DNA of 64,000 bases from an uncultured Erysipelotrichaceae bacterium (GCA_947569705.1 CANOSP010000003.1:62001-126000); one strand, 5' to 3'; numbered from the stretch's first letter, positions 29,231 to 33,387 are shown. Notes: generated from the sequence alone by a model not told the origin. Numbers and translations are program-made.

Positions 29231-29920
29231 GTGATCTTATTGGAAAACGTCTCTAAATCATTTAAAAATGGTGTTCATGCTTTACGTGATGTAAATTTAT
29301 ATATTGAAGAGGGCGAATTTGTTTATATTATCGGCCCGACAGGAAGCGGTAAATCAACCCTGATCAAGCTGCTGGACGGTGAATTGATTCCGTCAAGCGG
29401 CCGTGTTGTCGTTGCCGGAACCGATGTAGGAAAACTGCGTCATTCTAAAGTACCTCTGTATCGCCGCAATATCGGTGTCGTATTTCAGGACTTTCGCTTA
29501 TTGCCGGAATTGACGGTATTTGAGAATATCGCATTTGCTTTGCAGGTGATCGGATTGGATAAGGTTACGATTCGTCGTCGCGTGCGTGAAATACTGGAGC
29601 TTGTTTCTTTAGAGGATAAGGCGAAATCCTTTCCGCGTGAATTATCCGGCGGGCAACAGCAGCGTGCTACGATCGGTCGTGCGATTGCGAACAGTCCGCG
29701 TGTATTAATTGCGGATGAGCCTACGGGAAATCTTGACCCCGAAAAAAGTCAAGAGATTATGGATTTATTAGAGAAGATTAATCAAGAAGAGAATACCACG
29801 ATATTGATGGTTACTCATGATTCTAATTTGGTTGATATGAATAAAAAGCGCACGATTGCTTTAGAGGAAGGATATATTGTAGCTGATATTCAGAAGGGTG
29901 GGTATATCCACCATGATTAG
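29231..29920 (+). CDS. ftsE: Cell division ATP-binding protein FtsE
   Basis: 229 residues from GTG 29231, 7 bases after AGGAGG (29218-29223); an in-frame GTG at 29225 is too close to it. Walker A GPTGSGKST, Q-loop VVFQDFRLLPELTVFENIAFAL (FtsE-specific), signature LSGGQQQR, Walker B VLIADEPTGNLDP, H-loop VTHD. It energises FtsX to activate an extracellular peptidoglycan hydrolase at the septum. Its stop overlaps the first ftsX start (ATG inside CATGATTAG). Confidence 0.96.
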   Translation: MILLENVSKSFKNGVHALRDVNLYIEEGEFVYIIGPTGSGKSTLIKLLDGELIPSSGRVVVAGTDVGKLRHSKVPLYRRNIGVVFQDFRLLPELTVFENIAFALQVIGLDKVTIRRRVREILELVSLEDKAKSFPRELSGGQQQRATIGRAIANSPRVLIADEPTGNLDPEKSQEIMDLLEKINQEENTTILMVTHDSNLVDMNKKRTIALEEGYIVADIQKGGYIHHD

Positions 29921-30815
29921 ATTTTTCCGCTTATTGCCTTATCATTTAAAATCGGCAATACAGGGATTGGTTCGCCACAGTGCAACCGCTTTTTCTGCTA
30001 TATCGGCTGTTACAATGACATTGATTCTGATGGCATTGTTTATGCTGCTGACGGGAAACATCTCAAGCTTTACTAAGAATATCGAATCGGATTTCCGTAT
30101 TCATGCTTCTATTGACGCTGTTCAAGATGAAGCTGATATTGCGAAGCTGCAACAGAAGGTGGAAAGCATACCCGGTGTGAAAATAGTAGAATTTTCAAAC
30201 AAGGATCAGGAATTGGCAAAGCTGAAAGAAGAAAATGAAAATATTTTCGGCATGTATGAGGAAGGCGATGCGAATCCGCTGCGTGATGTTTTTATTATTG
30301 AAACTGCAACACCGGAAGATATTGAACCGGTGACTGCGACTTTAAATACAACCGAAGGCATCAATAAGGCGGAATACGGCGGAGACGGCGTGTCGGTAAT
30401 GGTAGATTTGTTTAAGGCAATTCGTAACGGCGGTTTTATCTTTGTCGGCGCATTGAGTCTTTTGGCGGTATTTTTAATATCAACTACAATTAAAATGACT
30501 ATTTATGCGCGTAGTACGGAAATCGGTATTATGCGTAATGTCGGCGCAACAAACGGTTTTATTCGTGTTCCTTTCATTGCGGAAGGCTTAGTGATCGGTT
30601 TAGTCGGAGCGTTGTTGCCGTGTATTTTTACGTATTTCGGATATAGCTATTTATATCAAATATTAAACGGACAATTTTTATCAAATATGCTTGTGATGCA
30701 GGAAGTATATCCGTTTGCGTTAAATATCTGTTATGTGCTGTTGGGGTGCGGTGTACTTGTCGGTGTACTCGGCAGTTTTATGGCAGTATCGAAATATTTG
30801 AGGTGGAAACGATGA
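29913..30815 (+). CDS. ftsX: Cell division protein FtsX, first copy
   Basis: 300 residues from ATG 29913. Four membrane helices: one near 25-45, then a large extracellular loop (about 48-165, with 'IPGVKIVEFSNKDQELAKL'), then three C-terminal helices including GALSLLAVFLISTTIKMTIYARS and IMRNVGATNGFIRVPFIAEG, the permease motif. It ends in KYLRWKR. Partner of FtsE; its loop is expected to bind the downstream M23 hydrolase. Overlaps ftsE by 8 bases and the hydrolase gene by 4. Confidence 0.94.
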   Translation: MIRFFRLLPYHLKSAIQGLVRHSATAFSAISAVTMTLILMALFMLLTGNISSFTKNIESDFRIHASIDAVQDEADIAKLQQKVESIPGVKIVEFSNKDQELAKLKEENENIFGMYEEGDANPLRDVFIIETATPEDIEPVTATLNTTEGINKAEYGGDGVSVMVDLFKAIRNGGFIFVGALSLLAVFLISTTIKMTIYARSTEIGIMRNVGATNGFIRVPFIAEGLVIGLVGALLPCIFTYFGYSYLYQILNGQFLSNMLVMQEVYPFALNICYVLLGCGVLVGVLGSFMAVSKYLRWKR

Positions 30816-32191
30816 AAAAGAAATTAACAGCATTGATTACTGCATTTGCATTAATATGTATTATACCTTATTCAAGCGAGGTAGTACATGCGGAAGACTT
30901 TGCGAGCAATCAAGACTACTATGATTCTGTATGTCGTCAATACAATAAGGATTCAGAAACTACAGCTTTATGTAATCGTTATCGTGATTGGCTGAGTAAT
31001 GAGCAGGATGCGTTAAAAGGTCAGGTTGCGAATATTAATTCATCAATTGAGAAGCTTCAGGGCAACATTGATGCACTACAGTCTGAAATCAATAAGAATC
31101 AAGCTTCAATCGATAAGTTAGATGCTCAGATCGCAAAGAATGAGGAAGCGATCCAACAGATTCAAGGTGTTATTGAAAATTTACAAGTAGAAATCAAAGA
31201 AACAGAGAACGATATTGAAGTTCGTGATGATCAGATTAAGGACCGCATGGTCAGTGAGCAGGCTTCCATCGGAACCAATGCCTATGCGGAGTTTATTATG
31301 GGAGCGACGGATCTGGTTGATATGGTGCGTATTGTTGAGGGTATTACACGCATTACGGAAAATGATCAAGATGAAATCAAAGCGTTAGAGGAAGATAAAG
31401 CGAAGCTGGATCAACAAAAGGATGAACAGGAGCGCTTAAAGAACGATCAGGAAATCGCAAAAAAGGAAAATGAGGAAAACCGAGCAGTGATCATTGAGGC
31501 AAAGGAAGCCAATGAAGCATTAAAAAGCGAATATTTAAAACAAGAAGCAGAATTAATTGAACAAAAGCGTAGTGCAGAAGGTGCTTCTCAAGCAATTCAA
31601 AGTCAAATAGCCAGTATAAACTCAGCTGATTTAGGCTTTGTCGCAAGCAGCGGCTGGATCGTACCGGTGCCGAGTGCCTATATTTCCGCGGGAACATGGG
31701 CTTATCCGGGCGGCGGGTTCCATCCCGGAAGAGATTTTGCGGCATCTGTCGGTACACCGATTTATGCGCCGATCGGCGGGGTAATCGTTTATGCAAATAA
31801 TCCGATTCCTACATATAACGGCTTTTTAGGAAACTGGGTAGGTTATCCGGCAGGCGGCGGAAATACGATTCATATGATCGGATCTGTGAACGGAACGACT
31901 TATGCGATTTCTTTCTTCCATATGGCACAAGAAAATTTCTTAGCTTCTCCGGGCATGGCTGTTACGCAAGGTCAGCAGCTCGGCGCAGTCGGTCATACAG
32001 GGAACAGTACCGGTCCGCATTGTCATGTGGAAGTGTTCAATCTCGGCAGTATGTCGGTTGAAACAGCAGTAGCACAGTTCTCATACAGTGCCGATTTTGC
32101 ATGGGGCTGCGGCTGGCGCACGGAGTCTACAAGCTGTGATGCGAAAGGCGCTGCACCGTGTCGCGAGCGACCGGAAAAATTCTTCGGATAA
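30812..32191 (+). CDS. Secreted murein hydrolase (EnvC/PcsB-like coiled coil plus M23 LytM domain)
   Basis: 459 residues from ATG 30812 (overlaps the ftsX stop as ATGA). Signal peptide 1-27, long coiled coil about 60-265 (many heptads, e.g. KLQGNIDALQSEINKNQA), then a LytM/M23 endopeptidase domain near 300-425. Zinc motifs HPGRD (HxxxD) and HCHVEVF (HxH) are both present, so it should be catalytically active, unlike EnvC. In pneumococcus FtsX activates PcsB through its coiled coil; the same logic is inferred here. The Cys-containing C-terminal extension (ESTSCDAKGAAPC) is unusual. Confidence 0.92.
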   Translation: MKKKLTALITAFALICIIPYSSEVVHAEDFASNQDYYDSVCRQYNKDSETTALCNRYRDWLSNEQDALKGQVANINSSIEKLQGNIDALQSEINKNQASIDKLDAQIAKNEEAIQQIQGVIENLQVEIKETENDIEVRDDQIKDRMVSEQASIGTNAYAEFIMGATDLVDMVRIVEGITRITENDQDEIKALEEDKAKLDQQKDEQERLKNDQEIAKKENEENRAVIIEAKEANEALKSEYLKQEAELIEQKRSAEGASQAIQSQIASINSADLGFVASSGWIVPVPSAYISAGTWAYPGGGFHPGRDFAASVGTPIYAPIGGVIVYANNPIPTYNGFLGNWVGYPAGGGNTIHMIGSVNGTTYAISFFHMAQENFLASPGMAVTQGQQLGAVGHTGNSTGPHCHVEVFNLGSMSVETAVAQFSYSADFAWGCGWRTESTSCDAKGAAPCRERPEKFFG

Positions 32192-32217
32192 AAATAGAAA
32201 GGCGGTAAGACAGAGAT

Positions 32218-33120
32218 ATGATTCAATTTTTCAAAAGCATACCTTTTCATATAAAATCCGCTGCGAAAAGTTTGGTAAGGCACTTGGTTATGACCTTGTC
32301 GGCAGCTTCCGCAGTCATGGTAACCTTAGTACTGCTTGCCGCATTTTTAATGATTGCCGGCAATGTCAGCGGCTTTGCCGATCATATCGAAGACGAAATC
32401 CGTATTCATGTGATTTTGGGAGAAAACATCGTCAGTGAAGAACAGCTTCAGGAAACAAAAACTGAAATAGAAGCGATCGACGGTGTAAAAGAGGCTGAAT
32501 TATCTGATAAGGAAAATGAATTAAAACTGTGGATTGCGGAAAAGGGTGAAATCTTTTCTATGTATGAGGGCGAAAATAACCCGCTCCACAATGCGTTCTT
32601 TGTCAGTGTCACTGATCCTGATCGTATTGCCGAGATCAATGATACAATTATCGCGCTTGATTTTGTAGATGATGCGATGTACGGAGGAAACAGTATTTCT
32701 ACTTTGATATCAATGCTTAACACAGTACGCAGCGGTATCATTGTCTTTGTGGCATTGTTAGGTGTACTTGCCATCTTCCTGATCAGTAATACGATTAAAA
32801 TGGGTATTTACGCTCGAACTAATGAAATTGCGATTATGCGCAATGTCGGTGCGACGAATACCTTTATCAAAACACCGTTTATGATCGAAGGTATGATCAT
32901 CGGCTTACTGGGATCAATTCTGCCTTGTATCGGAGCTTATTTCGGCTATGCTTATCTATACAATGCGATGGGCGGACAGCTCTTCAGTAATGTATTTGCA
33001 TTCCAGCCGATCAATCCGTTTGTATTTGAAATCATCGGTATTTTGATTATCACCGGAATGTTTGTCGGTGTCTTTGGTTCTTTCTTATCAACGACTAAAT
33101 ATTTGCGTTGGAAACGATAA
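32218..33120 (+). CDS. Second FtsX paralogue
   Basis: 300 residues, same length and topology as the first FtsX: helix near 25-45, extracellular loop with 'IDGVKEAELSDKENELKLW', three C-terminal helices with LLGVLAIFLISNTIKMGIYART and IMRNVGATNTFIKTPFMIEG, ending in KYLRWKR. It lies 26 bases after the hydrolase gene with its own AAAGGCGG site and no second ftsE. Two FtsX copies flanking one hydrolase suggest a heteromeric FtsE2-FtsX1-FtsX2 complex; this is inference. A bidirectional terminator follows. Confidence 0.92.
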   Translation: MIQFFKSIPFHIKSAAKSLVRHLVMTLSAASAVMVTLVLLAAFLMIAGNVSGFADHIEDEIRIHVILGENIVSEEQLQETKTEIEAIDGVKEAELSDKENELKLWIAEKGEIFSMYEGENNPLHNAFFVSVTDPDRIAEINDTIIALDFVDDAMYGGNSISTLISMLNTVRSGIIVFVALLGVLAIFLISNTIKMGIYARTNEIAIMRNVGATNTFIKTPFMIEGMIIGLLGSILPCIGAYFGYAYLYNAMGGQLFSNVFAFQPINPFVFEIIGILIITGMFVGVFGSFLSTTKYLRWKR

Positions 33121-33122
33121 TA

Positions 33123-33146
33123 AAAATCAGCTTTCGGGCTGATTTT
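33123..33146. terminator. Bidirectional terminator between ftsX2 and veg-like gene
   Basis: Perfect nine-pair stem AAAATCAGC/GCTGATTTT with TTTCGG loop between two converging genes. Confidence 0.9.
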
Positions 33147-33387
33147 CTTTATGTGCGCTGATTACACAGCTTTTCGTATAAACATCCAAATAAGTAATGG
33201 TGGTTTTGTAGCTTCCGTATTCTTTAGTATCCACTTCAACTTCAAAAAAATGGCGAAACAATGCGGTAACCTTTGCATCTCCCTGCTTAATCATACGATA
33301 TGTCGAATGCGGGTGATAAACGATATCAACACGCTGTCCTTTCAGCTTTGCTATTTCTTCTTTGATTTTAGCCACACAAGCATCCAT
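33127..33387 (-). CDS. Veg-like protein (DUF1021)
   Basis: 86 residues. Resembles Bacillus Veg: an N-terminal helix (ACVAKIKEEIAKLKGQRVDIVYH), a basic YRMIKQGDAKVTALFRHFFEVEV segment and a C-terminal TTITYLDVYTKSCVI strand. Veg is a small cytoplasmic protein that stimulates biofilm matrix genes in Bacillus, mechanism unclear. AAGGAGTG precedes the ATG. The resemblance is by pattern and size; moderate confidence. Confidence 0.68.
   Translation of the reverse strand: MDACVAKIKEEIAKLKGQRVDIVYHPHSTYRMIKQGDAKVTALFRHFFEVEVDTKEYGSYKTTITYLDVYTKSCVISAHKENQPES

Follow-up and report, generated by a model that had tools for sequence, protein, structure and literature searches.

The window analysed here, a stretch of 64,000 nucleotides from an uncultured Erysipelotrichaceae bacterium (GCA_947569705.1 CANOSP010000003.1:62001-126000), contains on its plus strand four closely packed genes encoding FtsE, FtsX, a coiled-coil M23 murein hydrolase and a second FtsX. 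The ftsE gene (29231-29920) starts with GTG, has a GGAGG motif just 5' of it, and its product scores 272.7 bits against TIGR02673 (cut-off 264.85), which places it in the FtsE family. It overlaps by 8 nt with ftsX1 (29913-30815), which starts with ATG and encodes a protein of 300 amino acids with the FtsX_ECD and FtsX Pfam domains (NF038347, 316.6 bits; cut-off 225). A second overlap, of 4 nt, joins ftsX1 to the hydrolase gene (30812-32191), whose 459-amino acid product carries a signal peptide, a CC_PcsB coiled coil and a C-terminal LytM domain (Peptidase_M23). After a gap of 26 nt follows ftsX2 (32218-33120), also encoding 300 amino acids (NF038347, 310.7 bits against the cut-off of 225; Pfam FtsX_ECD), and a terminator-like hairpin with a 10-pair stem and a T-rich tail (33123-33146, plus strand) closes the four-gene unit. 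The two FtsX proteins are 45% identical, have the IMRNVGAT motif in common and both end in KYLRWKR. An earlier note on this DNA had described this gene order, the overlaps and 26-base spacing, and the length and common motifs of the two FtsX proteins, all of which the gene calls and family scores bear out, with minor corrections. In the region past the ftsX2 hairpin, a small convergent ORF of 86 amino acids lies on the minus strand (33127-33387).

Distribution of the FtsX pair in the Erysipelotrichaceae

In a survey of 273 genomes from this family of gut bacteria, the FtsX1/FtsX2 pair is found at 31 loci in 15 genera, and most remaining members of the family have ftsE-ftsX-M23. The search of related genomes that the earlier note had proposed as a check recovered the order ftsE-ftsX1-M23-ftsX2 throughout the window's genus (seven genomes) and a rearranged order, ftsX1-M23-ftsE-ftsX2, in 12 other Erysipelotrichaceae genera, among them Holdemanella, Faecalicoccus, Faecalitalea, Floccifex and Merdibacter; three genomes (G012, G066 and G238) have ftsE-ftsX1-M23-ftsE-ftsX2. 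The pair occurs in records named Holdemanella, Faecalicoccus, Faecalitalea, Floccifex, Merdibacter, Longicatena sp. and Ileibacterium sp., and the named record nearest to the window is 'Bacterium c-19'. Outside the family, no genome of a class-wide sample of 394 had more than one FtsX match at E 1e-50, with a model that misses some FtsX proteins. Full-length FtsX is absent from genus g4 (G009, G061-G064) and from G017, G022 and G060, all of family f1, and FtsEX thus seems to have been lost in these parts of the family.

Origin of the two FtsX proteins

In a tree of 110 FtsX sequences, all 31 FtsX1 proteins group in a single clade (support 98/97) and the 31 FtsX2 proteins in a second (100/100). 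A single duplication hence took place before the 15 genera diverged, and both of its copies have been kept since. A recent duplicate that close relatives lack, which the earlier note had named as one finding that would overturn its reading, is therefore ruled out. The same evidence weighs on the proposal that ftsX2 is a dispensable leftover of a tandem duplication with no distinct role. Tandem duplications are common and the copies are still 45% identical, as this proposal would have it, but both are intact at all 31 loci and carry paralogue-specific fixed residues, and the sole apparent loss comes from a damaged or misassembled locus, so that we regard a leftover as very improbable. This locus (L091 of G141) has a single FtsX nested inside the FtsX2 clade. 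In it, ftsX1 is reduced to a 3' end joined onto the 5' part of an upstream ftsE, a part that recurs together with its leader in the downstream ftsE, and the hydrolase gene has its junction at a single ambiguous base. The locus was thus not accepted as a natural loss of FtsX1 and was left out of the loss count.

The simplest history is a tandem duplication of ftsEX followed by loss of either ftsE. In the three genomes with two ftsE genes, identity between the FtsE copies is 77-79%, compared with 43-50% for the FtsX copies. The FtsE tree is weak and does not reject a clade uniting the FtsE of the window's gene order with the first FtsE copy of the two-ftsE genomes (p-AU 0.205), its signal being likely blurred by gene conversion. 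A different arrangement, ftsE-ftsX-ftsX-M23, is found in Breznakia pachnodae and a relative (G069 and G070; L072 and L073). The FtsX tree rejects a common origin with the FtsX1/FtsX2 pair and identifies a separate local duplication, from which it follows that one FtsE with two FtsX proteins arose at least twice in the family.

One FtsE for two FtsX proteins

In the window genome, a genome-wide profile search gives a single TIGR02673 match above the cut-off, in agreement with the absence of a second ftsE claimed in the earlier note. The same number was obtained in every checked genome with the order ftsE-ftsX1-M23-ftsX2, ftsX1-M23-ftsE-ftsX2 or ftsE-ftsX-ftsX-M23, none of which has a hidden second ftsE over the cut-off; two matches occur only in the three genomes with two ftsE genes at the locus. 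The ftsE gene is single at 28 of the 31 two-FtsX loci, in either of two positions. Both states are found within genus g48, in which G066 has two ftsE genes and G067 one, both genomes keeping both ftsX genes. No ftsE remnant was detected 5' of ftsX1 at the 26 ftsX-M23 loci tested, at five of which less than 700 bases of upstream DNA were available. That both FtsX proteins share one FtsE is strongly supported by these gene counts.

A third FtsX clade occurs at four loci (L042, L069, L071 and L084, from G012, G066, G067 and G238), in each case with its own coiled-coil M23 gene and no ftsE. FtsX3 must therefore borrow an FtsE if it works as an FtsX, and these pairs suggest that an extra FtsX can do so while serving its own hydrolase. 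They also imply that a heterodimer is not needed for the sharing of FtsE alone.

Probable shared drive and diverged grip of FtsX1 and FtsX2

Both paralogues have the FtsX architecture, with four transmembrane helices, an extracellular domain with an X-lobe and a coupling helix between TM2 and TM3, an assignment based on model and profiles for FtsX2 and on sequence alone for FtsX1. The single-chain AlphaFold2 model of FtsX2 (pLDDT 80.6) has helices at residues 2-60, 158-199, 201-209, 214-250 and 265-298, and in a fold search it matched solved FtsX chains best and LolC/LolE next. Divergence between the paralogues is unevenly spread over this architecture, with its minimum in the coupling helix (mean column divergence 0.084) and its maximum in the X-lobe (0.304). 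This distribution indicates that the contact with FtsE is common to both proteins and that the grip on the hydrolase has diverged. Because FtsX1 and FtsX2 are nearly alike where FtsX contacts FtsE and differ most in the lobe that grips the hydrolase, a single FtsE very probably powers both.

The divergence of the lobe can be followed to individual residues. In pneumococcal FtsX, residues E109, Q111, L115, M119, W123, F126 and N131 have been mutated as contacts of the hydrolase PcsB (PMC6355983), and they align ungapped to E99, E101, W105, K109, F113, Y116 and N121 of FtsX2, respectively. Five of these seven positions are alike in both paralogues. The remaining two are the equivalent of L115, which is leucine in 31 of 31 FtsX1 proteins vs methionine, tryptophan or tyrosine in FtsX2, and that of M119, which is mostly asparagine in FtsX1 vs mostly lysine in FtsX2; in the window's FtsX1 these residues are L104 and N108. 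They rank first and fourth, respectively, of 300 columns for paralogue-specific difference, although the enrichment at contact positions is modest and computed with relatedness ignored (Fisher p 0.02 to 0.04, depending on the threshold). The difference in the extracellular loops that the earlier note had pointed out is thus found, in the alignment, at positions of hydrolase contact. The evolutionary rates of the FtsX1 and FtsX2 extracellular domains are also correlated over the branches of the tree (partial r 0.43), which weakly hints at mixed pairing of the two proteins; this correlation is gone on terminal branches and is for that reason given little weight.

The same anatomy has to be weighed for an arrangement without a mixed pair, in which FtsX1 and FtsX2 form homodimers that draw on a common pool of FtsE and compete for the same M23 hydrolase, or engage it successively, at different sites or stages of division. 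The dimer-forming helices of the two proteins are similar, so that homodimers could form, and both proteins keep the complete FtsX architecture together with the coupling helix and most of the residues at hydrolase contacts; the ftsX3-M23 pairs, moreover, imply that FtsE can be shared without heterodimers. Homodimers, however, require an unproven division of labour and would not by themselves explain why neither ftsX was lost at any of the 31 loci while ftsE copies were. We therefore rate this arrangement as unlikely, though it is the one among the alternatives to a mixed pair to which we give most weight.

The M23 hydrolases

The single-chain AlphaFold2 model of the hydrolase combines a long hairpin of two helices (residues 48-163 and 168-269) with a C-terminal LytM domain rich in beta structure, and its best fold match is EnvC from the FtsEX-EnvC complex. 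With its CC_PcsB and M23 domains, its EnvC-like fold and a gene located beside ftsX (as in nearly all f1 loci inspected), the protein has the features of a PcsB/EnvC-type effector, whose binding to FtsX is predicted. The zinc and catalytic residues H304, D308, H370, H403 and H405 (HxxxD and HxH) are present in 30 of 30 hydrolases from two-FtsX loci. The earlier note had taken the hydrolase to be active; the zinc sites on which it relied are indeed kept and make activity likely. Alignment columns special to the hydrolases of two-FtsX lineages were also sought and proved uninformative, as diversity is simply higher among the one-FtsX hydrolases.

How many such hydrolases a genome encodes bears on whether the two FtsX proteins serve one partner or two. 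In at least five genera (G007, G020, G035, G065 and G239), each with two FtsX proteins and one FtsE, there is only one CC_PcsB protein genome-wide, and the second FtsX is thus left without a second partner of the PcsB type; in Longicatena sp. G020 and G065, moreover, the hydrolase profile has a single match. The window genome, in contrast, encodes a second coiled-coil M23 protein of 509 amino acids (G000:C1:203637-205160, L185:2638-4167; CC_PcsB 36 bits) with a Pro/Asp-rich linker, intact zinc residues and no adjoining ftsX. FtsX1 could accordingly serve the neighbouring M23 and FtsX2 another hydrolase such as this one, a proposal also favoured by the further M23 proteins with a related C-terminal domain found in many two-FtsX genomes. 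Yet both FtsX proteins are kept in the five genera with one CC_PcsB protein, including the two genomes with one profile match (counts that cover hydrolases of the M23 and CC_PcsB types), and in G004 the gene for the second coiled-coil M23 reads as stop-broken although both ftsX genes are intact. Separate partners are in our judgement rather improbable, more so than homodimers. The earlier claim of two loops on one hydrolase is therefore the simplest reading where a genus has one such hydrolase, but it is not forced in the species of the window, given its second coiled-coil M23.

A proposed mixed FtsX clamp and its relation to known systems

FtsEX is the main switch that links cytoplasmic ATP to cell-wall cutting at division. 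The system described here departs from the usual FtsEX, in which FtsX is the product of one gene and forms a homodimer, in having two FtsX genes, from two clades, for one FtsE; every other FtsEX feature is present, and it is thus classed as an FtsEX variant. One FtsE gene, two FtsX genes that are always kept and, in five genera, one PcsB-type hydrolase would fit a lineage-specific FtsEX in which FtsX1 and FtsX2 form a mixed clamp on the neighbouring M23 hydrolase, which we regard as the most likely reading, at about even chances. In such a system, one FtsE homodimer would drive two unlike FtsX proteins derived from one old tandem duplication, which would pair as a mixed dimer whose two unlike X-lobes hold the coiled coil of the hydrolase like a clamp. 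Binding of ATP by FtsE would then move the lobes and free the LytM domain of the hydrolase, as in FtsEX-EnvC and FtsEX-RipC. A stricter form of the mixed clamp, which we put forward tentatively and rate somewhat below an even chance, is an obligate FtsE2-FtsX1-FtsX2 heteromer that would hold the M23 protein in a fixed orientation, having arisen as LolC and LolE did from LolF. In some genera, FtsX2 might then be a common subunit encoded with FtsE, and FtsX1 or FtsX3, each with its own hydrolase, might give specificity.

Solved FtsX dimers hold one coiled-coil partner, itself asymmetric, between their two lobes, which move differently in M. tuberculosis (PMC10694151) and alike in P. aeruginosa (PMC11627006). 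The FtsEX-RipC system of Mycobacterium tuberculosis is similar to the mixed clamp in that its FtsX dimer holds a single coiled-coil hydrolase in an asymmetric grip (PMC10694151), one that is predicted here; it differs in that the asymmetry comes from two identical FtsX proteins and the hydrolase is of the NlpC/P60 type. As a homodimer already grips asymmetrically, the asymmetry that the earlier note had presented as a departure from known systems is not new in itself; its fixation by two genes would be. Similarly, FtsEX-PcsB of Streptococcus pneumoniae has the same FtsE and FtsX families, PcsB-type coiled coil (PF24568) and equivalent lobe contact residues (PMC6355983), but only one FtsX and a CHAP domain instead of M23, whereas here two contact positions differ between the FtsX paralogues.

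Type VII ABC permeases form either homodimers (e.g., MacB and FtsX) or heterodimers (e.g., LolCE) (PMC5985334). LolCDE, the homodimeric counterpart of which is LolDF, is such a transporter with one ATPase and two related permeases that form a heterodimer (PMC5985334), a likeness that here is one of gene content. LolCDE, however, moves lipoproteins, and FtsX1 and FtsX2 are both plain FtsX proteins, the heterodimer of which is predicted. A literature search, outside which most subscription papers lay, returned no description of a two-FtsX system or of an FtsEX of such a kind in Erysipelotrichaceae. If real, the mixed clamp would show that evolution can turn a homodimeric mechanotransmitter into a heteromeric one. 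Where a single ftsX gene supplies both lobes, neither can be mutated without the other, whereas here they are encoded by two genes in 15 genera, several of which (Holdemanella, Faecalicoccus, Faecalitalea, Floccifex and Merdibacter) have cultured type strains, so that the role of each lobe is directly testable.

FtsEX-EnvC of E. coli, P. aeruginosa and V. cholerae is the system nearest to both structural models, through EnvC for the hydrolase and the FtsX chains for FtsX2. It has one FtsX, and the LytM domain of EnvC is an inactive amidase activator, in contrast to the M23 domain encoded in the window, in which the zinc and catalytic residues are kept.
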